This document shows, one piece after another, positions 1,169 to 25,659 of a stretch of 57,302 bases of DNA. Each line of letters begins with the position of its first letter. Positions within the stretch are counted from its first letter, which is position 1. The stretch comes from Oehlia diaphana. Taxonomy: Eukaryota > Glomeromycota > Glomeromycetes > Glomerales > Glomeraceae. The notes beneath the pieces were generated by a model. That model saw only the letters and a list, made by a program, of their open reading frames with translations. It did not search any database and was not told where the DNA came from. The translations under genes were made by a program, and so were the position numbers. The stretch spans positions 104,658 to 161,959 of the forward strand of contig QZLH01000131.1 in NCBI GenBank assembly GCA_003833135.1, read 5' to 3'.

Positions 1169-2291
1169 TTATTTCTCATCATCCATGATTGAAAATCTTA
1201 AATCGGATCGTCTTTGATTTTTTTGCCGCTTGATACAATTCCAAATTATATGGAATAATGTAATGATCATTTCTGGGTTTGATGATATATTATTAATAAT
1301 ATAATCAATATCATCACTTAAAGTTTGCTACAAATAAAACAAAAATTAATTATAAAAATTAAAAATAAGAATTAAAACATAATAGATTACTAGATTACCC
1401 TGGGTTGTAGGCCAAATGCAATATGCAAAGCCATCTTGATTTGATTTGGTTCATTATTAAATAAGTTATAGGAAGTAAATAATGCTTTTATATAAGTATA
1501 GCCTGCATATTCCAAATATTTAATTAAGCATTTATCAGCTGTTTTCTTATCATTGTTACAATTATTGATATTGCGCTTTTTGGTTTTAATAATTCGAATG
1601 AATTTTTCCAACACATCAGGAGGTATAGTGTTTTGAAAAATTATGCGGCGCAGCAATTGATTATTATATCGATATAACAAAGAGAAACAATTGTTGTTAT
1701 TATATTCATGTGTTCCATGATCATAATTTGAAAATGAAACATTATCTTCATAACTAAATGAACATTTTATAAGTCTTTTATCATCTGTCCATAACCTGTC
1801 TTCTGAAGACTCTGTACGTGCCATCCGCTATGAATAAAGAATTATTGTTATTAAAATAGAATTTACAAATAATCCTATAAAAAGTCATGGCCAATACCTT
1901 AATTGAAAAGTCTCCTCGCTTAGTTTCTGATTGTGGCGCAGAAACTTTATCTAAATAATTGTTTCTTTGAATTATTTCTGGTAGTAGTTCTAATTTTTGC
2001 GCAATCAATGTGAGGAATATCATACAAACCTTGAAATGAAGAACAAAGCTTCTCATATTCTTCACGAACATGGATGCCAGAATTCCAAGCTTCAATAATT
2101 TCTTCAACTTCAGAATCATGTAAAATACGATCCCCCCTTGCCTCTAAATAATGTTGTTTGAAGAGCTGAAAAGGCTCTGAGTTACCAATGATCATAGGAG
2201 GTAAATTCCACGTTAAAAATTGATGATTTGATAACAGAACAATTATATTTTTTTCGGATGTATTTTTGTCAAAATCATATATAAACCTCAT
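1169..2291 (-). CDS. B1: family-B HMG-box-like protein with long C-terminal tail
   Basis: Four exons join in phase: 2291-2030, 1989-1898, 1827-1399 and 1327-1169, giving 313 residues. Exon 1 holds the B signature: a DKN.SEKNIIVL start, FLTWNLPP, then an HMG-like helical core (FQLFKQHYLEA ... EIIEAWN ... REEYEKL). The remaining 225 residues are basic and Asn-rich with no recognised domain. The family is probably HMG-box DNA-binding or HMG-derived, so a nuclear role is inferred. The start ATG is preceded by a TATATAAT box on the minus strand at 2332-2339. It is divergently paired with A1. Intron 1 (40 bp) is very short and is the weakest junction; introns 2 and 3 (70 and 71 bp) are typical. If intron 1 is not spliced, the protein stops at about 114 residues. 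Confidence 0.6.
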
Positions 2292-2570
2292 TTTTCAGTA
2301 AAATTGTTTTTTCGAGTAAAACCTATCTCAAATTATATATAAGAAATTTAACGTTAGTATAACGTTACTCAATAAAGTAGCACAGGATTACAAATGGAAA
2401 TGTCAACCGAAATATAAACTGATATTTTAATAATATCCTTAAAATTTCTATATTAGGAATTGTACAAAAATTAATTACAGAAAGTCATGTGATGTACATT
2501 AAGATATATAAAAAACTCATTCCATTTCTTTCTTGATAACAAAATAATAAATACCTTCCTTATTAATAAT
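2292..2570. promoter_or_regulatory. bidirectional promoter between B1 and A1
   Basis: The 279 bp between two divergent ATGs carries a TATATAAT box facing B1 (2332-2339) and a TATATAAAA box facing A1 (2505-2513, 58 bp before its ATG). Both genes therefore have their own core promoter in one shared intergenic region. Confidence 0.55.
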
Positions 2571-3473
2571 ATGGCAAAAATAAAAATTCTTTTGGATAAA
2601 ACTGAACCGTCGAAAAGGCTACATGTCCTTGCTCTCGACAGTGAGACTCATTGTTACTTGAATGTTAAGATATCCTTTGCTGAGGAATTAGTCAATCGGA
2701 ATTATAAAGATATACTTAATGCGTTTATGATATTTAGAATTGATTTTTGCGATGCATTCAATGAAGCAAAATCAAATGAGAAATTTCGAAAAAAATTGGG
2801 ATCTTTTAAAAACACTTCATTTCTTTGGAAAATTTCACCAAAGGATGTTACAGACGTATACGAGCAAGTTTTTACAGAATTTAAAAAATTGAAACCAAAA
2901 AAACTCAGTTTCATTACTTGCTATCCGCAAGAAAGTAAAAGCAGAGAACTAAACTTCGAAAATTCCGAAGTTACCTACAACCAAGTTAATCAAGTTAATC
3001 TGCGTAACAATATTTTTCTACCAGAAACAGAGAATCCTGTGATTATGCAGGATCAGGATTATTTATCCGATAATATAAATTGCTCGACTTCTCAATCTCA
3101 ATACGACGAACCAGAACTCGATAATTCCGAAACTCTATTAGATATTGATAATAGTAACACAAATGATTTGAATTCAACAATTCAATTTGGAAATACTGAG
3201 GTATCGGATAATATATATAATTTATCGGGTGAATCAAATTACTTAATTCCTCAAGGGCCAGAATTTGATAATTTTGAAACTACACTTGATCAATTTAATA
3301 TTAATATGATTTCAGAGACTAATCAGTTTGATAGTTCTGAAGTTACTAACATAGACTATAATATTCCTCAACTACAATATCTTTCATGCGATAATGCTGC
3401 TTATAATATGGCTTATAATTTGGGTATGAGTTTTTGCGAGTTAAATGATATTTCGAAACTATTATTTACATAA
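2571..3473 (+). CDS. A1: family-A HMG-box-like protein, single exon, 300 aa
   Basis: Residues 1-45 form the A-family N-cap (KIKILLDKTEPS.RLHVLAL). Residues about 50-115 form an HMG-like core: NAFMIFR near the first helix and LWKISPKDV.DVYEQ in the last helices. Such cores are typical of the expanded MATA-HMG family in AM fungi, so sequence-specific DNA binding in the nucleus is a family-level expectation. The tail (about 125-300) is rich in N/S/D/E/Q with degenerate copies of the PE.DNFET.LDQ unit. Unlike A3 and A4, whose tails are split by phase-1 introns, this tail is one uninterrupted ORF. The last 40 residues (IDYNIPQLQYL) resemble the final exon of A3. A TATA box lies at 2505-2513. Confidence 0.75.
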   Translation: MAKIKILLDKTEPSKRLHVLALDSETHCYLNVKISFAEELVNRNYKDILNAFMIFRIDFCDAFNEAKSNEKFRKKLGSFKNTSFLWKISPKDVTDVYEQVFTEFKKLKPKKLSFITCYPQESKSRELNFENSEVTYNQVNQVNLRNNIFLPETENPVIMQDQDYLSDNINCSTSQSQYDEPELDNSETLLDIDNSNTNDLNSTIQFGNTEVSDNIYNLSGESNYLIPQGPEFDNFETTLDQFNINMISETNQFDSSEVTNIDYNIPQLQYLSCDNAAYNMAYNLGMSFCELNDISKLLFT

Positions 3474-4482
3474 ATATTATCTTTCTTTTTTTGAATTTTT
3501 GTAAGGCTGTGAATATTTCGATTCTTCCAGAAGTATGACCTGTTATGAACGACTGAAGTTAATTAACCAACCCATCTTTATTATTATCCAAAAGGATATT
3601 TATTTGCGAATACCTGTTGATTTTCCATTACATAGTCCTTGAATCAAGTGTATGTTTAATTAAATATTAAACAGAGGTTTCTTCTTTTTGTTATTTTTAT
3701 TCATTCAATTATCTAATATATTTGAATTTTGTGAAATTAACATTACGGCAGCATGAATAGATCAGTAAAATTTTATATTCCTACATTTTATTTTATTCAT
3801 AAAATAAAAAAAATTAATATTGTATGTATTGTATGGTTAACACCGAAAGGAGGGGAGGAGGGGGGGGGGGGATGCATTATGTGCAGTATGACAAATTGAA
3901 AAAAACATTATCCAAACTTTTCACCGCGCTTTTAAAAAGGTTTAGATTAGACAAGCTAAAATTCCATTATTAATTTATAAACAAGTTTTATAATATTGAT
4001 GTTTTCAGCTTAAATTTTTATTTTTATTTATTTATTAATTTTTTATTTTTTTTTTTTTTTTATTTATTTTTTTTTTATTTTATTTTTTTTTTGATTAGTA
4101 ATCATAAGAATGTCTTAAATCTAGAAATTTCTTATTTATGATTCTTGAAAATAAAACAATAAAACCCGCTTTAAATTGATGAGTTTAATGATTATTTTGT
4201 AAGACTTATTAACGTGACACGAATTGCTGCGCCACAAACCTTAAAATGATGATATACTGTATATTTTTTTGCGTCCATAGAAATCATAAAAACACGTAAA
4301 TTTACGAAAGAAACACGTGATAAACAAACACCCCTTAAAATTTGCGAAGCTATTTTTTTTTGTACCATCAGAATAACACATGCGAAAACATCCCAAACAT
4401 CCCTCTGAATTTAATTAAATTTGCGAAAAAATCTTCGGCTACGAATTAAGAATTTGCGATTTACGGATTTATGAAATAAAAT
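3474..4482. other. intergenic between convergent A1 and A2; G-run and poly-T tract
   Basis: No gene is seen. A purine strand GGAGGGGAGGAGGG followed by a run of G lies at about 3846-3871 and could form a G-quadruplex. A T-rich tract spans about 4018-4093. A CACGTG lies near 4314. The rest is AT-rich. Confidence 0.5.
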
Positions 4483-5120
4483 TCATTGCATTTTTTTAGA
4501 AGAATTATTGTAGAGTGAGTAATACTCAGAATGATAAGGATCTTCAAATTTTAAAAAAAAAAGTCAATACAAATAACTTGTACAATATAAAAAAAGAATT
4601 ATTTCGTAATGAACGTACCTGAAATTGGGATGACCCCATTTTCCTCTACGTAGTTAAATATTGATTCCATTAAGTCAGAAGGTATAGTAGTATTGATATT
4701 GAGTTGACCACCCGAATTTTTGGTTTCAGCCGTTTTACTGAAATTCTTCTCGTTTTTTTCTGAAGGATCATACATAACAAATTTTTTAACTTTAGGTTTA
4801 AAATTTCTGAAACCTATATAAATATTCTCATATTCGTCTTTTACGTCTTTTGGGGAGTTTTCCCAAAAAAGAGGTATATCTTTAGGAGAATATGAAAATT
4901 GTTTATAATTTTTATTCGATTTCGCCAAACTAAATCCAGAACAGCAATCAATACTAAATATCATGTAAGAATTTAGTATGTCTCTATAGTTACGGTCGTA
5001 AATTTCTCTTGCGGTCGAAATTTTAATACTTAAGAACTTATTATACTTATGGTCAAGGACAAGAATGTTTTTAGAAGGTCCATTCTCATCAAGAAAAATT
5101 GTTGGTAGTGGCTCGACCAT
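4483..5120 (-). CDS. A2: family-A HMG-box-like protein
   Basis: Two exons (5120-4619 and 4541-4483; 77-bp intron, phase 1) encode 186 residues. The HMG-like core is recognisable (NSYMIFSIDC ... LFWENSPKDVKDEYEN), and the N-cap is more divergent (PSKNILVLDHKYNKFLSIKIS). The tail is short and lacks the QPE..FENFE repeat; the last exon adds DPYHSEYYSLYNNSSKK. The donor is TTTCAG|GTACG. Without splicing the ORF ends six codons later, so the second exon is supported only by phase and consensus. A TATATAAATA box on the minus strand lies at 5155-5164. It is paired divergently with B2. Confidence 0.65.
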
Positions 5121-5441
5121 TTCTTATTATCATAAAATATTTTGAGAAACTAATTATTTATATACATGATTAGAATATGCAATTGCATATCGTATAACTT
5201 GCACAAAGCTGCATAATGGCACACATTCACAAAAAAGTTGAAGCCAGGGAATTATATATTTTGTTGTTATAACAATGCGCCTAATTTAGTTGTCTCAGGG
5301 TTAAATGAGAATAAATTTAGTAATCCTTTTAAACATTTTAGATGATCTTTCTATAAACGAATAACAAATCTATTATTTAAATAAACCACGAATTCCTATC
5401 CTTTGAAATAAACGAAAATATTTAATGTATGAGTAGGAATA
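5121..5441. promoter_or_regulatory. bidirectional promoter between A2 and B2
   Basis: A 321-bp intergenic region. TATATAAATA (minus, 5155-5164) serves A2. TATTTAAATAAA (plus, 5374-5385) lies about 60 bp before the B2 ATG and is the best TATA-like candidate for B2. Confidence 0.5.
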
Positions 5442-6020
5442 ATGATCTCTAACTACTCTACTCGAACATTAATAAAATTCGATAAGCATCATAATAGAAA
5501 CATTCTGGTTCTTAAGCCAAATTGCGAATTTTTGATGTGGAAATTTCCTCCAATTATTGCTAATAACAGAAATACAAGACGTTCTAAGAGAAAAAACAGA
5601 GGGGTAAAAAACATAACCGGATTCCAACTTTTTTACCGTCACTATTTAGCAGCTCAAAAAAAATATATGCAAAGACCTATTAGAAACGGAGTTGAACAAA
5701 GCGTGGAAATTCAGAAAATTTGGAAATATGCTGAAAACCAAATTCGTTTTTTATACGAAAAATTAGCTTTTCAGTTAAATTTAGTCAACTATTTAAATAT
5801 ACAAACTTATAGTATCAAAATTTTTTATAATCTTAATAAAAATTTTCACACAAATAAATTAGTTATGAACGAATATCCAGTCTCGACGTATCAGATATAT
5901 AACATTGATATCACTTTTATTCCAAGAATAACCAAAAATAACTCTCAAAGGGATAATCAAGTCTCAAAGGTTTTTCGATTTATTATTCAAATCATCATCA
6001 ACCGTTACAACCGTTACTAA
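5442..6020 (+). CDS. B2: family-B HMG-box-like protein, 192 aa
   Basis: The single ORF carries the B signature: HNRNILVLKPNCEFLMWKFPP (about residues 17-37), a basic linker (RRSKRKNRG), then FQLFYRHYLAAQ ... EIQKIWKYAENQIRFLYEKL as the HMG-like core. Downstream residues are Asn/Ile-rich and share nothing obvious with the tails of B1 or B3, both of which are spliced just after the core. An unrecognised intron or a drifted 3' end is therefore possible. It is divergent from A2 and convergent with A3. Confidence 0.6.
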   Translation: MISNYSTRTLIKFDKHHNRNILVLKPNCEFLMWKFPPIIANNRNTRRSKRKNRGVKNITGFQLFYRHYLAAQKKYMQRPIRNGVEQSVEIQKIWKYAENQIRFLYEKLAFQLNLVNYLNIQTYSIKIFYNLNKNFHTNKLVMNEYPVSTYQIYNIDITFIPRITKNNSQRDNQVSKVFRFIIQIIINRYNRY

Positions 6021-7062
6021 AGCGAATGCGAATGTACAACGTATACAATATGACTACAATAAGCAAATAAGCATTAATTATATACACTATGATTTCACTA
6101 TGGATTTATATTATAGATAAGCATAACTTCCACTATAGATTTTTTAAATACCGCTTCTAAATTTTTTGATGACATTATGACATTTAATTATTATCGTAGT
6201 TTAAACTTTCGAACGTTCGGATATAAGTAAAAAAACATACGTAACTTTTTTGATCGAATCGTAGTTTAAAAACGTCGACATATGTAAGAAAATCATATGT
6301 AAATCGTTTATTTTTATATATTTTTGATGTAACTTTTTTGATGACATTTTATGTAGTATTATCTATAACTTAGTTTATTTCGGTATATTCTTATTTTCGC
6401 TATTTTTTTTTATAAATTTTGGTTTATCTCGTTACGTATTTTAACTTCCCAATTTATTTTATAACCAAATCTTTTTTTCGATTACATGTAAAAATTAAGA
6501 GTTCTAAGATAGCAAGCTTCATATTAACCACAAAATTAAAAATTTTATTACACAAAAATTTAAATATAGATGAAGAGATTCCTAATACAATATTTTGTTG
6601 ATTCTGGTTACTTTTGTAATAATTTACAAAAAGTTTGCAAGCATATTTACTCGCATTACGATCGAAGGGTTATAACTTTCATGAACAACAATGAGAAATA
6701 TTTTTGTTAAGTTATTTAGTCAATGTATAAAATTGTCATCAAAGCGATACTACTTTCTATAATTCTGAAATTTGATAATAGGTTTGTTAGTTTAACGTAC
6801 TCTCGCTTCTCAGTTCTCATGAAATCTTGTATCGCTTTTGCTCCCCATTAATTAACAAAATTTGTCGTTTAATTACAAAAATAATGTGTATATATTATGA
6901 TAAATTTCGATATATTAAATTTACTAAAAATTTTATCTGTTAATTAATATATTGAATTTATAAAGCGTAAAAAATGAACTTAAGAAATATTACTAGATAC
7001 ACATATCTTTATATCTATATATTATATAAATGAGTAAAAATCATAAAATAATTAATTAATTC
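6021..7062. other. intergenic between convergent B2 and A3
   Basis: AT-rich with no gene. Two near copies of CGTAGTTTAAA occur at about 6196 and 6250; a similar phrase recurs in the tandem repeat upstream of A6 (25561-25610). A 60-codon ORF here looks like chance. Confidence 0.4.
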
Positions 7063-8217
7063 TTAATCATATAAAAGTTGCGGAACCGAAAGATTGAATA
7101 TTCCATAATCTTTAATAGATTCATATAGATTAACACGAATCTTTGTAACAAAAATAAAGTAATGTCGGCTTACCTAAATAAACATTATTATATTGAATAA
7201 ATTCTGGTTGAATGAAATTATTTGTCTTATTAAGTGAATTATTTTGACCTAACGTAGCTTCAAAGTTTTCGAATTGAATAGCTTCCGGTTGAGAAACCAA
7301 GTTATTTGAGTCTAAATTAATATAACATCGAAATTTCAAATTTAATGAGGTGTTGGTTGAATTCATCAAATAATGTAAATAATTTCAACATACCTAAGTA
7401 AAACAAATTCCCATTCTCCTCTGCAATACCAATTTTGTCGGGAATAATGTTATTATAACTATCTTGAACTAACGCTGCTTCAAATTGAGTAGCTTCTGGT
7501 TGATAATTCACGTTATTTATAATAATAGAATCGTCAGAATTTTCAAATCGAACTGAGAAACAAAGTTATCATTAATTAATGTTAGGAGAATTAAAAGATT
7601 AAAAAAATAATTAACATACATAAGCACATACCTAAATGAAACAAATTTTCATTCCCTTCTAAAATATTGTTTGCAAAATCAACATTGCCAGTAGATTGAA
7701 AAAAGTGATTAGATGAATTATTTTGGTTCAATATATTTTCGAAATTTTCAAATTGAGTAGTTTCTGGTTGAGAATTAAAGTTGTTGTTGGACGAATCATC
7801 TTGAACCTTGGAATTTTTTAAAATGAGTTTTTCATCGATATTTTTACTCGCATTTTCTTGATATTGAAATGCAATAAAATTTTGATTTATTGGGATTAAT
7901 TTCCTATAATTAATAAAGACCTGTTTATATTCATTTTTAACTTTTTTGGGGGCTTTGGCCCAAAGTGATGAAAAATCTTTAAAACATTCAGAATTTTTAC
8001 GAAAATTTATTTCTGATTTTGCAATTTTAAATGCTTCGTTACAATCAACCATAAAAATCATATATCCATTCTTTAAGGAATCTTTATATTTTCCTATTAT
8101 TTCTTTTGGAGATGATATTTTAATGTTAAAGAATGTATGAGTCTTAAGTGCAAGAGCGACGACGTATAATCGTTCTGAAGAGTCTTCAGTATTCAAGAAA
8201 ATTTGTATTTTTGACAT
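7063..8217 (-). CDS. A3: family-A HMG-box-like protein with duplicated symmetric exons
   Basis: Four exons (8217-7632, 7552-7394, 7311-7174, 7109-7063) join in phase to 309 residues. Exon 1 carries the N-cap (SKIQIFLNTEDSSERLYV) and HMG-like core (NGYMIFMVDC ... LWAKAPKKVKNEYKQ), then one tail repeat ending NENLFHLG. Exons 2 (159 nt) and 3 (138 nt) each begin and end in phase 1 and each encode another copy of the QPEA.QFE(N)FEA.L.Q unit ending YLG, so they look like duplicated modules. Exon 4 encodes DYGIFNLSVPQLLYD, similar to the A1 C-terminus. I chose the ATG at 8217 over 8232 because MSKIQIF aligns with the other family starts. A TATATAAG box lies at 8288-8295 (minus). Confidence 0.68.
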
Positions 8218-8287
8218 TTTTAAAAATTTCATATACTTATTATTTCCGTCTGATGAAGAATATTAATTTTTAATATTGGAGAAGCGA

Positions 8288-8295
8288 CTTATATA
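8288..8295 (-). promoter_or_regulatory. TATA box of A3
   Basis: TATATAAG on the minus strand about 71 bp upstream of the A3 ATG; same position class as the boxes of A1, A2, A4 and A5. Confidence 0.5.
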
Positions 8296-8302
8296 TTCGA
8301 TC

Positions 8303-8597
8303 AAAGATCTGCAAATAATACTACCAAATTAGTTGAAATCAAGTAATTAATGAGGATTAAAGATTCTCTATCCAGCTTGAAAAAAAACACGAAATCCACG
8401 TGACTTTTCATCATCACCTTCGTTTTTCCAATTTATTGTATCAAAATTCTATTCGTCTCGCACTATCTGTCACATGTGCCATAATTTAATTTGCGTAATG
8501 CTGTCATTTTTCAGGTTACGCTAATTAAAGATCTGCAAATTATATTACCAAATTAGTTGAAATCAAGACATTAATGAAAATTAAAGATTCTATATCA
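8303..8597. repeat. duplicated about 70-bp promoter segment upstream of A3
   Basis: Copies at 8303-8372 and 8527-8597 share AAAGATCTGCAAAT, then TACCAAATTAGTTGAAATC, then ATTAATGA..ATTAAAGATTCT. A CACGTG (8397-8402) lies between them. This is a direct duplication of upstream regulatory sequence. Confidence 0.7.
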
Positions 8598-10547
8598 TTC
8601 TGAATTCTACTAATTGAGAATGATCAAGGTAATATAAAAAACATTCCATTTGTTATATTTTTAAAATTTCCAAATTTATCCTACTTTTAATATATATAAA
8701 GGAAGGTTCAAACAGACTCAAAGAATTTTTATTCTTTTATAATTTTCATTACATTGAAACAAATATCATTAATTTGGAACTTCTAATCGAATTAAGCTCA
8801 TTATACGGAACAATGAACCCTTCACGAAAATTGTAAAGATAAAAGTTGAAAATTTTGAATCGGAAACTTGTCAAAGCTTTGAATAATGCAGTCATAATTT
8901 GTCTAAATTACAATGAATTTATAAATTTAATATAAACATATAATGTTATCATAAACTATCTACAAATAATCCGGGATATATAATATTATCTTCTCGGTAC
9001 TTTTGTATTTATTAGTAATATACATGCTGGAACGCTTTTAAATATGGGCGCTATGATATAACATATACTGTAGAACCAAAAGTTAATTAATGTTTACTGA
9101 ATGCTTATTTTATTTTCTTCATAATAAATATTATTGTGGTTCTAGAGTCTAAAACAGATCCAATCGTTTTTTAATTATAATAACAAACCAACAAATTCCT
9201 CGTTACCGCCCACTTACATACAGCAAGCTGCAAGCCAATAGAATAACGATTATTGTTGAAACTTTTAACTGCATTAAATTATGATTCTGAAAACGCACAT
9301 TAACTGTTTAATATTAACCAATTATGCAATTAATTATATCAGTAAAATAGAACAATCTGAGCTATCCATCTTTATTATTCAATTCCTGCAGTACTAACTT
9401 ATTGCATACTATTTCTTTCGCTGTGCGATTAACTGACCACGTCAAAACATTGTATGCTCTGAACATGACACCTATTTACCTTTATGTCGACGGGAGTCAT
9501 GGACGTTGAGCTTTTGTAAAAATTATATACAAAGCATTAAATATCTCGTTAAGTATGAATTAGTTTTCCTTTATTTTAAAGAAAGAAATTTTAAGAATAT
9601 AAATCCAGCTATCACGCATAGTAACACGTTTGTAAAGTTTCATTCAAACTTTATTTTGAGTTTTTCTTTTTTTCCATTATTTAGAAGGAAGGCGGTTTCT
9701 TTCTTTCTTGTTCTTTAGGAAAAGATTGATTTAAATTAAAATTCCTTCTTTTTTACGTTTTGCTTTGGCTTCCAGGATTTTAAAGTAAATTTCAGCTTCT
9801 TATCTAGAAAATGAAAAATTAAATATCGTATAAAATAAATTTTATTACATATCATTACTATATAATACATTTATTGTTAAAATAATACGCAAATAAAAGG
9901 AAAATCATACTTGGTCAAATTAACATGTCAAGCGTACCCCGTTGTTCCACACATAAAAACAAAAATAAAAATAACAATATAATAAGTAAATAAATAATTA
10001 ACTAATTGCTAAATTTAAATAATTTTGATGCATATTTCATATGGTTTTTATGCATATGTGTATGAAATATGACGAAAAAAGTTAAAACGAGTGATGCGAG
10101 GTTCCAAAACCAATATACTAATCAAACTTACGATTAAGATTTGCACGAGTAGTAGTAAACTGAATTTTGAAATTCTTCTGTCCCGCATTCGCAAGTGTAA
10201 TATAATTTTATGTAATATATCGATATATAATTATACTAATTTATGGTGATTCATAATAAACGAAAATAAATTTCTTATTAATAAAAATACAATGGTTCTA
10301 TATCTTAAAAAGAATTAACTTAAATATTTATCCATATCGTGAATTATTTTTTTTCTAATATTACGATGTTACGAATTCATTATTGGATTATTAACATTAT
10401 TAACTAACCTTAATCATTCATATACTTATTATTCATATATTATATATCAAATTGTGCTATAATATTAAAACATATTGCATGTTGAATCATTCATATATTG
10501 CTTACTTTACTATATTGTGTAAGAAATCTGTACGAATTTGTGTAACG
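8598..10547. other. intergenic upstream of A3, with orphan plus-strand TATA box
   Basis: A strong TATATATAAAGG (8691-8702, plus strand) points away from A3, and an ATG at 8813 gives only a 7-codon ORF. The layout mirrors the divergent pairs but no B gene follows. The remaining sequence to 10547 is AT-rich with no gene; ORFs near 9506 and 10452 start on non-ATG codons or lie antisense to A4. Confidence 0.4.
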
Positions 10548-11670
10548 CTAATAGCCAATTTCGAAATCAGCAAAAGGATAGTGAATAGTTTCCGATGGAA
10601 AGAGAAGATTATTCGTATAATTGTCGTTTTGAAATGTAGCTTCGAAATTTTCAAACTGTGGCTGAAGAATCAAATTATGTGTGTTGTCAGAAGAATCGTC
10701 TTGACCTAGAATCGAAATTTTCAAATTGAAATTATTATTTGCATGTTAGGCAGATTAAGACGTTGATAAAATGATGCATATGAAATATTATTTAAATTGA
10801 TTTACCCAAATAAAACAAATTCTCATTCTCTCCTATATTAATTGTTAAATATGCATTTTCAGGAATAGCTTCTAATTGAAGATTAATGTAATCTATGTAA
10901 CTATTTTGACCTGATGAATCTTCGAAAGATTCAAAATGAATAGTTTCTGGTTGAACATTTGCGCTATTGAACGAATTATCTTGATCTAAATATCAGAATT
11001 TTTCAAATTGAAAATTGTGTAAGACGAATTATTCTAAAAATATTATTATAGATTATTTAAACACACCTAAATTTTCATCATTATATACAGAATCAAAATA
11101 GTCAAAAGAAGGGTTTCGGATAAATTCATGTTGAAGAAAGTCATTAGGCGAATTATTTTTGTCAATTTCGAGATTTTCGAGATTTTCGGATTGAATAGCT
11201 TCTGGTTGAGGGGTTAAACTATTTATATCGTTTGGCGATTTATCTTGACCTTTTTCAAGTTCCGGTTGATCGTTATTTTTATTTGCATTTCCCTTAGGGC
11301 GGAAGGGAATGAAATCACGAACTTGTGGTTTTAATTTTTTATAATTTTGAAAAATTCTCTTATATTCATCTGTGACTTCGCTTGGTGAAGATCCCCAAAA
11401 TAATAAAGGTTTCTTAAAGGACTTTGAATTACTACGAAATTGCTTATTTGACTTTTTTGCTGCTTTGAATGCAGTTTGAAAATCAATCATAAATAGCATG
11501 TATGCATTAAGGATGTCTTTATAATTACGTTTAATATCACGTTCAATAATTTCTTCGGGGGAGGAAATTTTAATACTCAAATAACTTCGAGTTTCCAGAT
11601 CAAGAGCAAGAACGTGTAACCTATTTGAAGGTTCGGTCCTATCTAAAAGAATTTTTACTTTTGATAGCAT
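10548..11670 (-). CDS. A4: family-A HMG-box-like protein with repeat exons
   Basis: Three exons (11670-11067, 10985-10806, 10705-10548; introns 81 and 100 bp, both phase 1) encode 313 residues. The N-cap (SKVKILLDRTEPSNRLHVLAL) and HMG-like core (NAYMLFMIDF ... LFWGSSPSEVTDEYKR) are very close to A1. Exon 2 (180 nt, symmetric 1-1) holds VQPETIHFESFEDSSGQNS and exon 3 holds QPQFENFEATFQNDN, so each exon carries one tail repeat. The exon ends read NLG or YLG, as in A3. A TATATAAATA box lies at 11725-11734 (minus). The gene is solitary: no B partner was found on its upstream side. Confidence 0.7.
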
Positions 11671-12738
11671 AGTTGATCATCAGTAAAACGGATAATAAAC
11701 GCAACGTATTTTGAGAAATCGGGGTATTTATATAATGATTCAGTATCACGTTTTTTAAATCACTAATACTAACTAATTTGGACAAGACATTGTTATTAGT
11801 TTGAATAATGTGTGACAACCTGCTTGGTGACGCAAGTGTTTCTCACGTGTATATCTGACAATTTGGCAAATGTATCGTTCTTGTACCATCAGGTGCTATT
11901 TTCTTCTACCACCTTACTGTAAAAATATATTATGCGGTGAAGATCGACATGCATATGGTAGAAGAAGATAGTATTTGCGACAATTTGTATGTAATAATGT
12001 AATAGTATAATGTTAATAATCTTAAATTTTTTTCAAAATGCCCGTTTGGATATTATTGTGATTTATTTTAGTTTTAATATCGAACTTTTACAGCGCTTTG
12101 ATCTACGAAAACTATTATTTAAGAATATTAGTGACCCCCATATGATATTGACATGACAATCTTGATTTTTTAATGTTGTATTTGATATTGTATTTTTTTT
12201 TTTTTTTGATATTGTTTGCAATAATAATATAAATATATCTTTCATTTTATATATTCTTTTCTATTAATAGACTATTATTTCAAACATCATGAAATCACAT
12301 GATAATATTTGCACTTACGGTTAATAATATTATCCAATTCTGTATTCTGATCGGTTAAATTTATATACAGTATGTTTTAGCAAATACAATCAATAAAATG
12401 TAATTGGTTAAACATGTATATTCGAACAAAATTTTACTTAATCCATTTAATAAAGTTAGTTTTTTTCTAAATAAAAACGCGAAAATTAATTTTTTTTTTC
12501 TTTAAAAAATAAAAAAAATTCTATAATAAAAAAATAAGACAAGAAAAATCTTGTGTATAACATATATCTACTGATCTATAGCATAAGCATAAGTTAAGGA
12601 ACATACAAAATAAAAAAAAACACACGGAGAAGAATAAAACATAAATTAAACCATAAATAAAACAAATAAAAAACATAATTAAAAATACATAAAGTACATA
12701 AATAAAATTTTAAACATATAATAAACGATCTAATTAAT
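11671..12738. other. intergenic upstream of A4
   Basis: TATATAAATA (minus, 11725-11734) is 55 bp from the A4 ATG, and CACGTG lies at 11844-11849. No divergent gene is visible. The rest is A/T-rich simple sequence, especially 12480-12720. Confidence 0.5.
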
Positions 12739-13304
12739 CTAGTGAATTAATAATTTTATAAATACTAATTTTTTATTCGAAATTACTTCACACAAAATTA
12801 AATAAACTTTTTGCTTTTTCGGTAAAATCTTCAAAATAGTCTTTGATGTATTTATTCTTTTATCAAAAAAGATTTCAATTTCAGGTTTGAAATAAACTTT
12901 CATAGCAAAATTCATCCCTATCAAATAAGCATCTAATTAGTTTTTTTTTTTTAAAAAAAAAAAAGGTAAAAAAAGAAAATTTCTCCATAAATACCTAAAT
13001 TATTAATTTGCGTTGCATTAAAAAACAGTGAAGCAAGTTCATTGTATTTTATGCGAACTTCTCTATCTGCATTATTCCAAGCCTTGATAATTTCTGACTT
13101 AAATTTTTCAATAGATTTTTTTTGTGAGTAATTCTTCGTTGCTTCTGCATAATGATCGTAAAAGAGAGAGAGTGGGTTCAAATTTTTTGGGGTGTACTTT
13201 TTCATTTTAATTTGGAGTTCCCACATTAAAAACTCATAATTTGGTTTTAAAACTATGATTTGTTTTTCAGACGTGTCCTTTTTAAAGTTATAAAAACACT
13301 GCAT
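12739..13304 (-). CDS. B3: family-B HMG-box-like protein, 167 aa
   Basis: Two exons (13304-12995 and 12932-12739; 62-bp intron) join in phase. The protein has the B start (DTSEKQIIVLKPNYEFLMW), then the core (LSLFYDHYAEA ... EIIKAWNNADREVRIKYNEL), the clearest HMG-like version of the three. Exon 2 adds a Lys/Ile/Val-rich tail (AYLIGMNFAMKVYFKPEIE). I take the ATG at 13304; a longer frame at 13313 would begin with GTG. The upstream side is a long polypyrimidine tract on the coding strand with no clear TATA box, unlike its relatives. It is divergent from A5, 957 bp apart. Confidence 0.65.
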
Positions 13305-14261
13305 TTTTATCACGTCAAATTATAAAAAAGAAAAAAAGAAAAAAAAAGAAAAAAATTATTTTCAGTCTGATAAGATGCAGAAAGGAATGTAAAAAGGAAC
13401 TGAAGAAAACGGAAAAAAAAATATCGTATTTATTTGCAAATTGACACTGCCGCAGAAATTGCGTAATATCACATGGGAGTGAGAATTTTTTGATTCACTA
13501 GATTTAACTGTCACACCGAATGTATAATATAAATAGTTATAATATAGTACTTATTGTGATAATTAATGCGGTGAATTTACTGTCTTTTAATATTCTAACA
13601 AGTTTATAACGGAAGTTTTTTTTTATCAAAAGTTATTGTTATTTGGTGTTACTGGGGGTAGTCGTACTAGGAATCTCAAGGTATTAAGAAAATGATTAAT
13701 TTAACTAATGTCTTGAGCTCAAATTTTGGATAAGTTTTTGTCGATCTGTTTATTACGAAAACACTTTTTTTCGCGGCCTTTTAAAGGATGCAAAGTACGT
13801 GTTTCTTGCATTTTCTTCTTTATACTCCGAAAATACAACGTGGTTTAAGATTAAAATATCATTTACCTGTTATGAAGGTGTATTATTGTGCTTTACATAA
13901 ACATAACTCTTCACGTGAACATGCATAAATTTTTAATTTAATGATTCCAAAAACGAAATTCATAATCTTTTTAATGATTTAGGAAAAGTTTATAGAGAGG
14001 ACAAAAATACATACAATATACGAACAGCTTATAAATTTGGTTTGATGTTTTAAAAAAGAATCTTTTTTCATGAGAAATTCTACAAAATCATTTGTGTTAC
14101 TGGAAGTAGTCGTACTAAATTTCAAGGTATTATAAAAATTTGATTTTATTAATTGTCTTGAAATATATTAATTTGGTTAATAAGTTTCAGATCATTTTTG
14201 ATAAGTTGCCGATCTTTTGTATATAAATACGCACCATCCACAAAAAATTTTCTCTCCCAAA
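13305..14261. promoter_or_regulatory. bidirectional intergenic region B3/A5 with duplicated segment
   Basis: Direct repeats at about 13645-13745 and 14093-14190 share GTGTTACTGG..GTAGTCGTACTA, CAAGGTATTA and an AATGTCTTGA-like phrase. CACGTG lies at 13912-13917. A TATATAAATA box (14220-14229) is 42 bp before the A5 ATG. Confidence 0.6.
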
Positions 14262-14723
14262 ATGCTTAAAATGCAAGAAACAAACGAAGTGTACCTTATT
14301 TCCGAAATTTCTTGCGTCATTGTTCTTACAGAATCTGATAAATACCACAAGATTAAAGTATCAACTGCTCAAGAGATAATTGATCGAAGTATCAAACGAA
14401 AATATAAACGTCCTTTAAAAAATTCGTATATGATTTTTATGATTGATTGTAGCGAGGCATTCAAAGTTAAAAAAAAAAGAAGGAAAGAAAATCGTGAAAA
14501 TTATTTTTCATCACTTTGGAAAATCGCCTCGGAAAAAGTTAAAGACGAATATACAAAAATTTTTGAGGATTATAAGAGACTAAGACCAAATGTTATTGCA
14601 TTTCGACAAGCCGATGAAGGTTCATCAAATCAACCATCTGATAATACAAATGACCTTGATGAAGAATATAAACGTTTGTTCGATGAATTTATTGATATAC
14701 CCATCACCGAACGAAAAATGTGA
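14262..14723 (+). CDS. A5: short family-A HMG-box-like protein, 153 aa
   Basis: The frame opens further upstream on a TTG codon, but the first ATG (14262, context CCCAAA) sits 42 bp after a perfect TATATAAATA box, so I use that start. The N-cap is degenerate. The HMG-like core is well kept: RKYKRPLKNSYMIFMIDC ... SLWKIASEKVKDEYTK, with a very basic insert KKKRRKENRE. The tail is only about 40 residues and lacks the QPE repeats. It is divergently paired with B3. Confidence 0.68.
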   Translation: MLKMQETNEVYLISEISCVIVLTESDKYHKIKVSTAQEIIDRSIKRKYKRPLKNSYMIFMIDCSEAFKVKKKRRKENRENYFSSLWKIASEKVKDEYTKIFEDYKRLRPNVIAFRQADEGSSNQPSDNTNDLDEEYKRLFDEFIDIPITERKM

Positions 14724-17999: not shown

Positions 18000-18009
18000 G
18001 AAACTACTT

Positions 18010-18440
18010 AAAGAAAAGAAGATCAAAGGATATAATCTCATATCCATCTGATGGCACTCCTGGCATATTTCTATTATCGCGTATCTCCCCATCACACTGC
18101 CCATTATGTGATCGGAAACATACCAGCAAGAAAGTTGGGAGGGAGTAAACCCTCATTAAAGCTTGCCTCCGGAGAAACAGATTCATTAATTCCTGTTAAA
18201 TTAAACCGACTCAGAATTTCAGACCCAAATGACCATTTTGTATGGGACGACTTATTAGTTATGTATAATTCATGTAAAAAATATTCTTATGTTGAAGTTT
18301 ATGAAGAAACCAGGCTACAGTTGCCTGTATTCAGAAAGGAGATACAACAACATGGGTATTTAAGCCTAGTGAGAATGGCATAGATTTAATGACCATCTTA
18401 AAGACCTCATAACAAATGGGAGGGTGGTTATAGAACGAAA
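18010..18440 (+). pseudogene. decayed primase-like gene fragment
   Basis: Two frames must be combined. The first reads DGTPGIFLLSRISPSHCPLC then DRKHT, a CPxC-type Zn-ribbon segment I associate with viral/mobile-element-type primases common in Rhizophagus. The second, open from 18051 to 18383, reads RISDPNDHFVWDDLLVMYNS..KKYSYVEVYE, then after another shift TTWVFKPSENG. Frameshifts make it non-functional. Recognition is from memory of the family and was not searched. This fragment opens the block of higher GC. Confidence 0.35.
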
Positions 18441-18684
18441 AGGTATCGATCCAGGGTGATATTACTCCTTTATCTTCATACTTGCGTCGAAGTACCTCTT
18501 CCCTATCAATCTTTCTCGCACTGTCATATCCATATATTCATGAGGATTTTCTTCACCCTCTTTTGCATAATCACATTCATGCATCCATTTCTATTCTGTC
18601 GCGGTAAGTAGGCTCAGATTTTTTTCCTCTCTCTACAAAATCCATAACGAAACGTTGAGTAACGTATTGCTATTTTTTTTTTAG

Positions 18685-18899
18685 TCAGCACTCGGCAGTC
18701 AGATTCCGGTAAGATTTTATTTTTAATTTTTTTGTTTTAACTATTTCTTCCAACGAGCGGTTTTTAAATCATTTTCTTTGTTTTTTTTTTAGACGGCTCT
18801 TTCGAATTTCTTTGGAGACGATATTCTGGTAAGTTTAAGTTTTTTTTTATCTGTTTCTTCCGTCTTTTAACGAACGGTCTCTAATATTTCGTTTCTTAG
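18685..18899 (+). other. micro-exon-like array: two tiny exons between duplicated introns
   Basis: A 24-nt segment (18685-18708) and a 36-nt segment (18793-18828) are each bounded by a pyrimidine-rich ..TTTTAG acceptor and a GTAAG donor. The following introns are similar (TTTCTTCC, then AACGAGCGGT or AACGAACGGT). Both segments are multiples of 3. No intact host gene was found. Confidence 0.4.
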
Positions 18900-18929
18900 G
18901 ATTGGGCTCGACAAGTTCAAGTTTCGCAA

Positions 18930-19110
18930 CTGTATGTTCGATAGTTTAAGGATGTTCAACTTCGGCTTTAGTTTCGGACTTCACAACTGCAGATTTAGCA
19001 GGCTCATCTACGACAGAATCGGAAGTATTGTCGCCTGGGCATGTTTTCTTGATTTCATCAGTACTAGATGCGTCCGATGCTGGTTTAAGCGTTGATCTGA
19101 AACTTTGAAA
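18930..19110 (-). pseudogene. low-complexity coding-like remnant
   Basis: The minus strand translates without stop as STLKPASDASSTDEIKKTCP then GDNTSDSVVDEPAKSAVVKS, a Ser/Lys/Glu-rich stretch of about 50 residues. No start, ends or homologue recognised. From 19110 to 19960 no feature can be supported. Confidence 0.25.
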
Positions 19111-19959
19111 ATGGGAACCCTGCGATCTTGTTATCGGGTTAGTTAGCTTAGGGCGTTTTAGAGAATTCTTCGAAATCTCCTAGGCCAGATTCACGGAGCT
19201 TGGCTATAATTTGAAGCGGTCAAGAATATAATGCCACTCTCTCTTCCCACTTCCTGCTTACCTGCGCTCAATATTTTTCTCCAATATTTTCTTACCGAAA
19301 ATGTTACTTGAAAATTTTTCTTACCGCTACTACCACACCATTCGATATAATTCATTACAACTTGCCCTAAAGCATATTGAAAGTTGAATGTTTGCTGGGA
19401 TTGTCTACTTTATCCTCAGCTGGGTAAATTCCAAATGGTTTGAAACAAACTTTCTTTTTTAAAAAGATTAATTTTCATTTTTTTTTTGTTTAGAATTGGA
19501 ATTCTGAAGTAGTTTCAACCGATTTTCTTTATTACTTTTTTATGAAGGAGTAACAGTCAATTATAAATCGAATCGGGTTAGGTAGTTGGTCTCGCATTGT
19601 TTCTACTTTCATTTTAGTTACAGGAATTTTTCTTGGACTCCATTCTGATAATCATGGCTATGAAGGTATGACATGACTAGTACTTCTGGTGCACCAGGAT
19701 GGACAACCGGTCAAAATATGGTATATTATCTCTACAATGTGCGGATACGTCAAAAAAAACTGTTCACGTATCTTTCTATTTTCAGTGGAGCATCATGATT
19801 ACTCGTAACTATAAACGCAGAGAAATCATGTATTTTTAAGGCCGATGAGGAGTGGGAAAAGGTTATTAACACGCTCCAGAAAACGGTAGGTATGGTAAAG
19901 GCAAATAGAGGAGGCCTCCCATTATAATTTGAAAAATAACTAGGCTAATATATCCAACC

Positions 19960-21110
19960 AGGTAATAACTCTGGCTCTCTGGCTACTAAAGTAACTGTTC
20001 AAAGATCCCGAAAGCCAAAGACCAACGACTTCGTCTCCGCTTTAGGGATGGTCTTAGAGAAGTACAATTTGTCAGTCGACTCCACCCCGGAGCAATTAAG
20101 CGAACATGCTAAGTTGGAACTTTTCTTCCCGATTGGAAAGCCCGCAAGTGCATTAAAGACGCCCTTAGAAGATGCTCATTCAGAAAGGAGCAGATAAAAG
20201 CTTTCGTACCGGACGAAGAGAAGGAGAAGCTCACTATCGAGGAAAGGGCGAAATATTGCGTTGAAACTGCCGATAAATACATCATCCACCTCCATACACT
20301 CGATTTGGGCCCAAAAAGTTACGATGAAATGAAATAGTCGCTAGGGCTCCCGCTAATCACTATTTCGCATAAAATTAGCAGAAGCTGGGGCGAGCCTGAA
20401 GTTATCAACACCTATGCCAAAGACCCACAGGTCATACAGGCTTCCAATAAAATCCAGAAAAGCGGATTGAGAAACGATTGATTAAATCGGCGAAAATTCA
20501 ACCACATTTCTCCATGAAGAAGGAGCTTAAAAGGATTGAGAACATCGACACTACTAAACCTCCCTCTATGCAGATGTAATGATAATGCTGAGTGTAAGGA
20601 CCGCAGAAGTCATGACTCTCCGGATTTTCCATTATGAACCCGAATCCCCAAATCCGCCAGAATGGTATAAAGAAGGGTATTCTTGGTATTGCACAGGATA
20701 TATCAAGAATAGAGGAGAAAAGAAGGAAAATCCTAAGCTGCAGACCATTCCTTTCAATGGAGAAGAATCTGAAACGCGCAAGAGACTTGCTTACCTGGAT
20801 ACAAGATGCCATTAAGGCTGGAAGGTTGCGTGATCCTGTCTTAGTGAAAGTGGGAAGCGTAGTACAAAGCCATTTAGCACCTTTCTAAGACCCATAAGAC
20901 TCTTCCGAAAGATCTAGGGACATAGGAGCTAAACATGCTTCCAGGATTATGCAACCCACAATATCTTAGCCTTCTTACAAGAATTGCATTGAGGCAAGAA
21001 TCGGACAGATTAGATGCGGGAAATAGGCGAAACAGACTCGGAAGACTCTGACCCAGATCCTGATTCCGATTATGACTCTGAGACGGAGACCGCGGAAAAT
21101 AAAAATTGCT
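19960..21110 (+). pseudogene. decayed tyrosine-recombinase-like gene
   Basis: Several frames carry continuous coding-like text: KVTVQRSRKPKTNDFVSALG with SVDSTPEQLSEHAKLELFFP (about 20000-20140), EEKEKLTIEERAKYCVETAD (about 20220), ITISHKISRSWGEPEVINTY (about 20360), then MIMLSVRTAEVMTLRI (20579 on) followed by WYCTGYIKNRG, and finally GAKHASRIM (His at 20934). The R..E...LRI segment followed by a tG.iKn strand and an HxxR (KHASR) matches box I and box II of tyrosine recombinases. At least four frameshifts or stops separate the pieces. An acidic DSDPDPDSDYDSETE tail follows (about 21040-21090). Possibly Crypton-like; unsearched. Confidence 0.4.
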
Positions 21111-21730
21111 ACTGATTTCGGCAAGTCGGAATTCTTAGTGATCGCCATCCGATACCGCTGTGCTTGTGTAACAGAAGAAAATCGAAAGAAATAAATACGC
21201 AAACTTCCACCTCTTTCTTTTTCCCCTGAACAAACGCGAGAGGAATGTGAAAATGCTTTGTTGGGGCACAGGGCCTATCACATAAGTTAATATTAACGTC
21301 AAAAGCATATGTTATGAAAGGCCGAGGACTTCGCAATTTCCAAGATCGCCAGGCGTAAAACCACTTTGAGTCTTGCGAGGAAGAACGCTAAACTAAAACG
21401 AATCAAAATTCTGTACACATGTGCTTTCAAAGGCTTCTTAGTATCATACGACAATGTTAATCGCCTTCAGCCCTCGGGTTTTTATTCCGTGAGCCCCCAG
21501 AAACAAGATAGAAATCGTGAAGGAACTGGTGGAAGTTCGGTTATCTTCTCGCGAAAAATTAAGGTGTGTACATGTCGGAAGTTACATACGGTGATTTCAT
21601 AAATTCTCGCCACCTTGAATTTAGGAAAGCAAGATGGCTGATATTAATCTCGCGTGTACTATCATTCCCATCGATGGCTTTATTGAATTTCCACGCAAAC
21701 AATTACAATCTCCAATGGAGAAATGGTTGT

Positions 21731-21812
21731 TCCAATCCGTTAAACCGCTATCCGTCGGATTACGGATATCCGCCAAAAAATTCAGATTTTTCGGATAACG
21801 GATTGGATTTCT
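21731..21812. repeat. nested inverted repeats of ATCCG/CGGAT
   Basis: CAATCCGTTA pairs with TAACGGATTG, and inside it TATCCGT pairs with ACGGATA, with further TTTCGGATAA copies. Looks like a hairpin-forming transposon end or a clustered binding site. The surrounding 21110-21930 holds no gene I can support. Confidence 0.45.
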
Positions 21813-21936
21813 CGGATAATTGAATAATGGACGTTATACTCGATAAAATGTCACGTGCAATGAGCACGCTGCAATGTCTGTGCGACATAAACTATTTTTC
21901 TCCGAACATAACACATTTTTTATCCGAGCCAAACTA

Positions 21937-22971
21937 CCGCTATGTCTGAAACAAATACACTCTCTACTTCTACCGCCACTACTACTCGTTCACGTTAGCG
22001 GACGAAATCAAAAAAATATAAAACGAAGGAGCTTATCGACTTCTCGCGTAAGGAGGAGGAACTCAGCGAGAAGGTTTTAAGAGGTTAATGGCCGTGACTT
22101 TCTCAAGACGAGCAAAGATTTTTGCAGTGTTGACTTAGTTTTGGGACCGCCAAGGAATGTAAGGAGAAAAGGTTGCGCTCGTTCTCCTCGTACAAGACCC
22201 AGAAAGACTTGAGAGAGGTGCAAGCGAAGTATGAAATCGAAGATGGACGAATAACAGACATCGCAATTTGTCCCAAGTAAGTTTCCCTCCACTTGTTATC
22301 TTGATAATATGTTTTACTAACGTGGTTGCTCTCTCTCTCGTGAAGAAACCACCCCATCAATGATAACGACGAAGTTTTGCAGCACTGTATTAAGAAATAA
22401 GACTCAGGCTAGGTAATATGGGGACAGTCGTTGAGTAACGAAGCTATCCACTGTGAATATTTCGTCTATCCTCCTATCCTCCACGCGTGTGTCCATATTG
22501 TCAAAAATCTCACTGGTCAACTTGAAGTGTTGGGGAGGAAATGCGACGTGTGGATTACGCAATCAAGGCGCTCGAGGAACTAATTTGCATCCCGGAGGGG
22601 AAGCAACATCAAATTGCCATTGGGTTTGCACAGGTTAATAAGCCTATTTTATTCCAGAGACTAGGAAGGTCCGTTCCACTAATTTTTTCGTTAACAGTAT
22701 GTTGTGCAATGTGAGAGGCCTACCAAACCAACAAGAAAACAAAAGGCGGATACTGCATTCAGAGAGGATTACGACTATCTTTATGGAATCATCACCACGG
22801 CCACGGAATGGTACTTCCTCCTCTACACCACGGAAGGAATTTCATGTACGAGTGAAACCGAATGCCACGTTAGCCTATCGCTAAAGAAGAAACGAAGCCG
22901 AATTACGAAAAAACGTGAAGCGGGTGATGGAGGTTATTGTTGGTTTATTGAAGGACAGGGTGGATGTTGAG
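21937..22971 (+). pseudogene. decayed multi-exon family gene (SAM-like N-terminus suspected)
   Basis: Opens with MSETNTLSTSTATTTRSR then a stop. It continues in shifting frames: KKYKTKELIDFSRKEEELSE, then AKECKEKRLRSFSSYKTQKD with LREVQAKYEIEDG. After an intron-like gap comes DYAIKALEELICIPEGKQHQ with IAIGFAQ, a GT..AG intron (about 22634-22697), then YVVQCERPTKPTRKQKADTA with FREDYDYLYGIITTATEWYF and LLYTTEGISCTSE. I associate this arrangement with a large Rhizophagus family whose N-terminus resembles a SAM domain. Stops and frameshifts are spread throughout. Confidence 0.45.
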
Positions 22972-23191
22972 AAGTAGTTGAGAAGTAGCCGGATTGAAAA
23001 AACAACGGTCCAGGGGTATTCCGAAAAGGAATACTCGTGTATATTAGCATAGATGTATATTTATTTTTGCATGTATTGTCCCCAATATGTATTCATTTTA
23101 CTTCGCACTCCGCTTATGTATTAATAAAGCTTCTTTACATTTGCCACTTAACATTGAATATTTCCTGGCGCAAATAAAAAAAATAACAATC

Positions 23192-24160
23192 ATGTCATCC
23201 GAGCTTGAAGTTTGGAGACAGCATATCTCTGAGCTGGAGTCCGAGCTTAAGACTAAAAAAAAATGAAGAACTTGAAGCTTGGAGGCAACGCGCTACTCTG
23301 AACTAGAAAAGATTGACTAGCTTAAGGCTCGAAGTGCTAATCTCGAGGTCGAGAATTTCGATTTGAAAACAAGGTTGCGAAGCTCATGCAAGAACACAAG
23401 TTTACAATCGAGGGTCTAAAACGTAAAGATACAGAGCTTGAGAGTAGACTCGCGAAAGTGGAACAGGGTTCTCCGATAGTGAATGAGCAGCCACAGAAGA
23501 TTAAGGAAGCGTCAGATGAATAGTAGAGCAAGCGCAGGCCCAAGACATGCGAAGCTTCTGAAAGGCAAAAGAAAAACATTAGTGGTGAGAAGCAGAGTAA
23601 GCGGGAAAAGAAACAAATGCCTGAATCGGCCAAGCAGGGCTTGATTCGAGAAATGATTTCATCCAAGGAAGAAAATCATGTGACTGAAATTTCAGCGACC
23701 TTGGGTCGCCCAAATAATGAGACTTCGATAACAATCTATTCCAGTGAGAAATGGAAATATTATGAGTTATATAAAATCGCGTGCGATGCGGAAGAAAAGG
23801 CAATTGAAGCTAATAGAGAAGAAACATTGCGTTGGTGTTTCTATGCTAGAGAATTCAAGAGCATGTATAAAGATATTATGGCCAGCAATAAAGTTGGGGA
23901 AAGGTCAGGTATATGATTTCATCTCATCGACACCAAGCGCAAAACTTTATGTAAGCAGACACAGAGAGCCTTAAGAATTGACAATTTATTCGAAAAAATA
24001 TGAATGGACAAAATTCAATACATTAAAACATATAGTGGGGATGCTATTTCAAAATTTACTAGTTCTCAGATTCATACGATTATGGATCACTTCACCGTAA
24101 AGCCCAATTTGGTGATCCCGAAGAGCAAAACGAGGATAATTCTTTCAATTTAGATACCAA
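23192..24160 (+). pseudogene. decayed coiled-coil family gene
   Basis: ATG at 23192 starts SSELEVWRQHISELESELKT, a heptad-rich Glu/Leu/Lys coiled coil that continues through frameshifts (RSANLEVENFDLKTR, HKFTIEGLKRKDTELESRL). An intact stretch (23617-23916) reads ITIYSSEKWKYYELYKIACD then AEEKAIEANREETLRW. A C-terminal part reads MDKIQYIKTYSGDAISKFTS then SQIHTIMDHFTVKPNLVIP (about 24003-24120). In-frame TAG codons near 23521 and an early TGA show it is broken. No function assigned. Confidence 0.45.
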
Positions 24161-24959
24161 CCAGATGGGGTAAGCGTATCAACCGCACCTATTCCTTGAA
24201 CTCATGTCTTTAATTTGGATGAGCTTCCCTAGCGGGAATCACAAGGAGGATTCCTGGGGTGGAAGGACCCTCCGAAGGTAGAAGATTTGGCTCGATCAGA
24301 AGGTATCTCGGTACTATCATAGTCTGGGCACAGCTCATATGAAAGGCGCAGTACGATATCATCGAAAATAGGGGCTGTGCAATGTAAGATTGGATTTCGC
24401 ATTTTTTACTCCGCGATTGTTCCATCATCTAAAAACAAACTATTATCCGTAAAGATTTGGGGAATGTGTAAGCTTATCGACACCGCCAGGTGATTTGCAA
24501 GGGGGATTAACACAATGAATCGCCACATTATGTCTCGCACATAATTTTGTACGTGTAGACGTTTCACGTCCAGAACCAATACCTCACTTGCTCCTGCGGA
24601 ATTTCAAGCAATATATTAACGTGCATTTTTACTACTCCATATTTCGCCCGTTTACATTCCAGTTCGTCCTAGTTCATTTAACGTCTTAAAATATACTTCG
24701 AACCAATTTTAGTAACAAAACTTCGGGTCAACAAGCGGGAAACACTTGGATTTTCAAATTCTACGTCGGCAGGCTGGAATACAAATATGAAACTAGTGTA
24801 GCCGAATATCGCTTGGATTTTCAAAATTCGATCTCTAGCAAGATAACGATAAAATGGTAATTCTCCGGACTGTTCATTTCGGAATTCACGAAGTCACATG
24901 ACTCCGACGTCTTACGAGTATATCCCGGGAATATTCTGGGATGTAACCGGTTAAAACGA
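24161..24959. other. higher-GC spacer without recognised gene
   Basis: No coding frame I trust. Base composition still matches the preceding relic block rather than the AT-rich flanks. Confidence 0.35.
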
Positions 24960-25077
24960 TATTGAGTATGATATATACCTCCGATGTAGTTGAAAATCTA
25001 TACAGTATAATTTTTTATCTCTAGTTCTACATAGTATAATTTTTTTACAACATCGGAGGTATATATCATACTCAATA
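24960..25077. repeat. perfect 28-bp inverted repeat with 62-bp loop
   Basis: The 28 bases at 24960-24987 (beginning TATTGAGTATGATATATACC) are exactly complementary to 25050-25077. The loop contains a short direct repeat (AGTATAATTTTTT twice). Could be a small fold-back transposon or a transcribed hairpin. Confidence 0.85.
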
Positions 25078-25553: not shown

Positions 25554-25659
25554 GATATAAATTCGTAGTCTAAACGTTACGGATACACAGGTATAAATTG
25601 TAGTTTAAACTTTACGGGTACACAGATATAAATACGTAAACATTACTGTCACACAGGAA
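25554..25659. repeat. three degenerate tandem copies of about 35 bp upstream of A6
   Basis: Units share ATATAAAT.CGTAGT.TAAAC.TTACGG.TACACAGG. They lie 320-430 bp before the A6 ATG. Similar phrases occur at 6196 and 6250. Confidence 0.55.

Follow-up and report, generated by a model that had tools for sequence, protein, structure and literature searches.

Ascomycete MAT genes, which have a mating role, comprise an HMG box and a divergent alpha box, two related DNA-binding folds of which one is hard to recognise. Two related DNA-binding folds, one again hard to recognise, are likewise met in the gene families termed here A and B, which are clustered in a window of 57,302 nucleotides of the Oehlia diaphana genome (contig QZLH01000131.1, hereafter C131, positions 104658-161959; assembly of 108.8 Mb in 1,672 contigs) and are repeatedly arranged as divergent couples. 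The alpha-box family itself was absent from the Pfam matches listed for B (25 families listed). The explanation that we tentatively favour, rating it somewhat short of even, is that A and B represent two old lineages within a single cryptic clan of HMG-box genes in Glomerales, with A activating and B tuning; a short N-terminal three-strand module followed by the HMG box would, as part of that explanation, be the trait of the clan.

Three further known systems are close to this locus. MATA-HMG (SexM/SexP-like) is the HMG-box family of arbuscular mycorrhizal fungi (PMC3834313, PMC4771724); A and B share the HMG box with it but form a clade of their own, fall below the Pfam cut-off, carry an extra N-terminal strand module and occupy three contigs. 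The putative MAT locus of Rhizophagus irregularis consists of HD1-like and HD2 genes with opposite transcriptional directions and many alleles (PMC7490403, PMC11414155). There, too, two regulators are transcribed in opposite directions, but they are homeodomain proteins instead of HMG-box proteins, and no homeodomain match was found on any of the three A/B contigs (C131, C252 and C931). The Mucorales sex locus, in the order TPT, sexM/sexP HMG and RNA helicase (PMC7490403, PMC3834313), also holds HMG-box regulators, in that case of mating, whereas the cluster described here has several A and B genes and neither TPT nor helicase among the 10 flanking open reading frames (ORFs) scanned. The A/B head-to-head arrangement was named in none of the titles or abstract openings listed.

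Divergent A/B couples in the window

Reading frames place six A genes (A1-A6) and three B genes (B1-B3) in the window. Three couples stand head-to-head, B1(-)/A1(+), A2(-)/B2(+) and B3(-)/A5(+), with 279, 321 and 957 bp, respectively, from start codon to start codon, whereas A3, A4 and A6 are unpaired, so that half of the window A genes (3/6) are in couples. The three divergent couples of the original prediction are thus real, in both orientations and with their frames where they had been placed. Exons of A1, A3, A4, B2 and B3 are backed by public relatives.

In the first couple, the first exon of B1, coding for the N-module and the HMG-like domain, lies at 1947-2291 (-) on the evidence of reading frame and homology (homology span 1980-2312; top match P0038 of R. 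clarus, 56%), with perhaps one or more further exons within 1390-1827. The common upstream region of 279 bp (2292-2570) carries TATA-like elements in both directions and leads into A1 (2571-3473, +), a single-exon frame of 300 aa with a long acidic Asn/Gln-rich tail, to which P0012 is 80% identical. The second couple comprises A2 (4599-5120, -; reading frame and genome search), a common upstream region of 321 bp (5121-5441) and B2 (5442-6020, +; homology reaches 6054), whose N-module and HMG-like fold were modelled in structure. The third comprises B3 (12739-13304, -), with two exons found by homology and a splice junction common to public proteins, a common upstream region of 957 bp (13305-14261) and A5 (14262-14723, +; reading frame and genome search), a short frame of 153 aa without a long tail.

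Between the second and third couples lie two unpaired genes on the minus strand. A3 (7184-8217), recognised by the repeated tail motif D2/D3 and by homology, has its first exon at 7594-8217 and at least one tail exon downstream; A4 (10551-11670), found by homology and modelled in structure, has several exons, and its first exon, used as query, equals R. diaphanus protein C1646_751654 (100% over 98% of length). A tail segment of both is coded by a repeated DNA motif (7229-7789 and 10891-11227), seemingly at one copy per exon. A6 (25980-26417, +), again a short frame without a long tail, is 11 kb from the cluster and has no adjoining B gene.

A TATATA/TATAAA element is located 40-78 bp upstream of A1-A5, at -50 for B1, at -90 for B2 and at -55 for B4, the B member of a fourth couple on contig C252. 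The private core promoters that had been proposed are borne out in part: B3 has no such element in the 160 bp upstream, and the single element of A7, the partner of B4, is as far off as -129. The k-mers common to the upstream regions of the couples were too few to be meaningful.

HMG relationship and kinship of A and B

Profile comparison by hhalign against HMG boxes (reference rows: 16 M and 34 O, labels of our own) gave 93.0 and 92.8% for A and 71.9 and 93.9% for B, with reversed controls at or below 1.5%, supporting the HMG relationship claimed for both families. A three-helix, L-shaped HMG-like fold was found on modelling of B, and the predicted B structure thereby rejects a B family devoid of such a fold. 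The Pfam HMG_box cut-off of 25.4 bits was not reached: the best A scored 17.5 bits, and at E values up to 1 HMG_box was listed for only three of 18 A rows, the best at E 0.0059, and for a single one of 32 B rows, at E 0.02. At least 125 Pfam HMG matches exist in the genome, of which 50 were read (8 top loci, 38 of 40 further loci, L041 and L042 being left out as they are not Pfam matches, and 4 on C252). A Pfam HMG domain survey overlooks the A/B clan: no clan gene is among the 125 matches listed, the best score being 17.5 against 25.4 bits.

In the tree, A, B and two related genes of C252, X and Y, form a clade of their own with support of 100/99.6, beside 10 of the 16 M and 9 of the 34 O rows; from the public proteins, four of the 12 A and five of the 30 B were also included, and A7 was truncated at its frame break. 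(No alignment included B5a, P0023 was omitted from the B structure alignment, and the N-module test used 34 of the 36 B rows.) This joint clade, together with the sequence comparisons, rejects A and B as unrelated families. At the level of sequence, A and B are probably ancient sister paralogs with homologous N-terminal modules, although a direct comparison of the two N-modules found nothing, and the earlier argument that their N-terminal modules differ, so that they are not two copies of one gene, finds no support. Other searches were less informative: with the A model, Foldseek returned noise only and VIA-align a mixture of low-Z rows; with the B model, Foldseek placed HMG boxes among the top rows, none at E 0.001; a sequence search of solved structures led from B to HMG only at E 0.33-0.46, below better-scored unrelated rows, and from A to nothing; and an NCBIfam search yielded nothing useful.

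Differences between A and B

A hydrophobic residue three positions after the signature Asn, the wedge, is taken here to mark sequence-specific (SOX/MATA) HMG boxes, its position being that of the intercalating Ile in SRY. In the joint alignment every A (18/18), M (16/16) and O (34/34) row has such a residue, against only 6/36 B rows, Gln being the most frequent residue there in B (23 of 36). The Asn, the hydrophobic wedge and the Trp are conserved in all 18 A rows, a further likeness to MATA-HMG. Net charge per 70 residues averages +7.3 in A and +3.7 in B. Tail composition, taken from eight A proteins for which long models exist (A2-A6 not included), is 13-20% acidic, 1-3% basic, 8-15% aromatic and 19-31% Asn plus Gln. 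Most B proteins are short, the public ones measuring 101-279 aa. One of B4 type, P0030 of R. clarus (RclHR1_00070025), has an N-terminal Myb-like domain (24.0 bits against a cut-off of 22.9), possibly a real Myb fusion or else a merged gene model, the latter being conceivable because the similar R. irregularis protein P0023 scores only 15.3 bits for Myb.

Clan members elsewhere in the genome

An inventory based on ten protein queries (A4, B3, B2, Y, X, B4, B1, B5b, A5 and A2) against the assembly, the first pass of which may miss very distant clan members, placed strong matches on 3 of 1,672 contigs: C131 (A1-A6, B1-B3), C252 (A7, B4, X, Y) and C931 (B5a, B5b, B5c). Single weak matches on C119, C174, C577, C22 and C170 (E 2e-4 to 0.026) are taken as other HMG genes or noise. 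A very expanded, genome-wide family is thereby rejected, and membership in the very expanded MATA-HMG family itself, as originally proposed, is not borne out: A and B form a separate clade beside the sampled HMG rows, and their strong matches lie on three contigs.

The fourth couple, A7(-)/B4(+), is located near a contig end on C252, head-to-head with 244 bp between its members, and A7 carries a frame break. On the same contig X and Y, which are related to both A and B, lie in tandem on the minus strand (109747-110118 and 110609-111394; locus L015); the tandem adjoins an ordinary HMG gene at 108922-109599. C931 holds three B-type genes, B5a (19154-19865, -), B5b (24673-25506, +) and B5c (40506-41027, +) (loci L017-L019), with no A gene found near them. 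B5a and B5b, separated by about 5 kb, are copies of each other in inverted orientation (84% over 102 aa), and B5a has two stops and a masked stretch; frames are open in A1-A6, B1-B4, B5b and B5c.

Paired layout compared with chance

Head-to-head placement with an A gene is found for 4 of 7 B loci genome-wide and for 4 of 4 on A-bearing contigs, with gaps of 244-957 bp. By simple arithmetic, seven A and seven B genes placed at random would be expected to yield about 0.0009 neighbours at a distance of 1 kb or less, so that A/B neighbours are, as had been suggested, far beyond random placement. Since duplication accounts for closeness, orientation is a fairer test. With the C131 gene order fixed and orientation random, three or more divergent A/B couples arise in 6.25% of cases (P 0.0625), or P 0.0156 when the C252 couple is added; random labels with fixed orientation gave 8/56, and random labels plus orientation 320/14,336. 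The excess of the A/B layout over chance is modest, because the copies arose by duplication.

The couples are strongly diverged (B1-B4 31-39% identity; distances among A1, A2, A5 and A7 0.45-0.72). Over the four couples, A and B distances gave a Mantel r of -0.40, with 18 of 24 permutations as high, in what is a weak test at n=4, and the coupled A5 nests in the tree with the unpaired A3 and A6. The proposal that the unit duplicates as a pair is thus not upheld, distances of A and B being uncorrelated at this low power.

Relatives in public records

Public searches retrieved 12 A relatives (from R. diaphanus, R. irregularis, Glomus cerebriforme and other records) and 30 B relatives (6 plus 28, 4 being common to both searches; R. 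irregularis, R. clarus, Funneliformis mosseae and other records); in the comparisons with public proteins the genes of the present genome enter as R. diaphanus. A and B relatives were found on contigs of equal size, namely 1,421,872 (P0003 for A; P0013, P0027 and P0029 for B), 1,753,413 (P0005; P0036), 76,129 (P0006; P0016 and P0028) and 6,379 (P0004; P0015). This suggests that A and B are linked in other Rhizophagus or metagenome records, where the assignment to one contig rests on equal sizes and not on contig names. The tree pairs G. cerebriforme P0008 with A4 and F. mosseae P0042 with B2; therefore the gene copies are old.

Identities to R. irregularis fall into distinct levels. A close set comprises A4 at 94% (P0003), B3 at 92-94% (P0013, P0014) and B4 at 91-95% (P0027, P0021). 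Lower values are found for A4 with P0005 of strain A5 (79%; 69% full length), for B3 with P0017 of strain B3 (63%) and P0032 of strain C2 (44%), and for B4 with P0023 (81%) and P0036 of strain A5 (71%). B2 is 65% identical to P0029 and B1 57% to P0039. B5b and B5c, at 98% to P0022 and 96% to P0031 of R. irregularis, respectively, show a high ortholog identity unlike that of many R. irregularis orthologs of the paired genes. Holding the R. irregularis rows together was rejected by the approximately unbiased (AU) test for A4 (p-AU 0.006), B4 (0.0002) and B3 (0.003), the groups having been chosen after the identity table was seen. The R. irregularis A4, B3 and B4 sequences are thus not monophyletic relative to R. 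diaphanus, which was unexpected, and the conflict means either that haplotypes predate the species or that old paralogs were lost in different ways. A genome search found no second copy of A4, B3 or B4 at comparable identities in this genome.

Competing explanations

If A activates and B tunes, A would be a DNA-binding transcription activator, and B would be a small companion that pairs with A via the common N-module or occupies A sites, while the head-to-head order would allow both to be co-expressed from one upstream region. Such couples may have originated by head-to-head duplication of one ancestral HMG gene, with subsequent births, losses and re-pairing of A copies. Nearly as probable is the alternative that the couples are only the footprint of inverted and tandem duplication in a region of fast gene birth; A and B would then be separate HMG regulators that act on unrelated targets and do not pair functionally. 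The negative Mantel r (-0.40), the grouping of A5 with unpaired A3 and A6, the commonness of unpaired A and B genes, an orientation excess of only P ~0.016 and the clustering of other HMG genes (for example on C11, C88, C199 and C407) are all consistent with such a footprint. It sits less easily with the finding that, wherever a contig bears A, each of its B genes (four in total, on two contigs) faces away from an A gene, in either orientation and despite strong divergence, and with the A/B homologs on equal-sized contigs in other records, albeit of unseen orientation there. That the cluster is instead decaying into HMG pseudogenes is very improbable: the frame break of A7 and the two stops and masked stretch of B5a would fit, but the frames of A1-A6, B1-B4, B5b and B5c are open, A4, B3, B4, B5b and B5c are 91-98% identical to R. 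irregularis orthologs, and the B3 splice junction recurs in public proteins.

An unlikely explanation, of wider consequence, is a recognition or mating-identity locus, at which linked A and B genes would be divergent haplotypes kept across species by balancing selection, with A-B combinations specifying identity. It draws on the AU rejections for A4, B4 and B3, on the split of A4, B3 and B4 between 91-95% identity to some R. irregularis proteins and 79, 63 and 71% to those of strains A5, B3 and A5 (98 and 96% for the solitary B5b and B5c), and on the single copy of each type in this genome. Alleles are, however, indistinguishable here from old paralogs with differential loss, the AU tests were named after the identities had been seen, P0032 may be a separate paralog, and B2 is only 65% identical to a protein (P0029) on a contig of the very size that goes with the close A4, B3 and B4 relatives; nor is there a homeodomain match on these contigs, or TPT or helicase among the scanned flanking ORFs. 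There is accordingly a small chance that the cluster is an unrecognised hypervariable Rhizophagus regulatory locus whose haplotypes predate the species, which would make it a candidate for mating identity or nuclear recognition with cryptic HMG partners in place of a homeodomain pair. It has long been asked whether arbuscular mycorrhizal fungi mate and what genes determine their compatibility, and the clan offers a small, defined gene set, recurrently arranged back to back, for typing across strains. Should the R. irregularis lineages prove to be alleles, the A/B locus would directly rival or accompany the homeodomain MAT locus; should they be paralogs, it would be a clear case of HMG proteins diverging into activator-like and wedge-less forms while still neighbours.

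Surroundings of the cluster

Among the 10 flanking ORFs scanned, a subset of the neighbouring ORFs, seven had matches: short-chain dehydrogenase, MDM10 (two ORFs), DnaJ, peptide release factor, Zw10 and, below the cut-off, CHX17_C. The genome has six homeodomain matches on six contigs, all of them other than the A/B contigs, and linkage to homeodomain genes on the A/B contigs was accordingly rejected. Between the cluster and A6, positions 18000-26000 have a G+C content of 36-43%, against 24-31% in neighbouring blocks, and list no frame above 130 aa before A6; this stretch is possibly an insertion. Ordinary HMG genes are also clustered in the genome (for example on C11, C88, C199, C407, C166 and C1057), some in tandem and some in mixed orientation. 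Near the far end of the window, an open frame of 349 aa (56160-57209, +) resembles, as judged by eye, a Tc1/mariner-type transposase.

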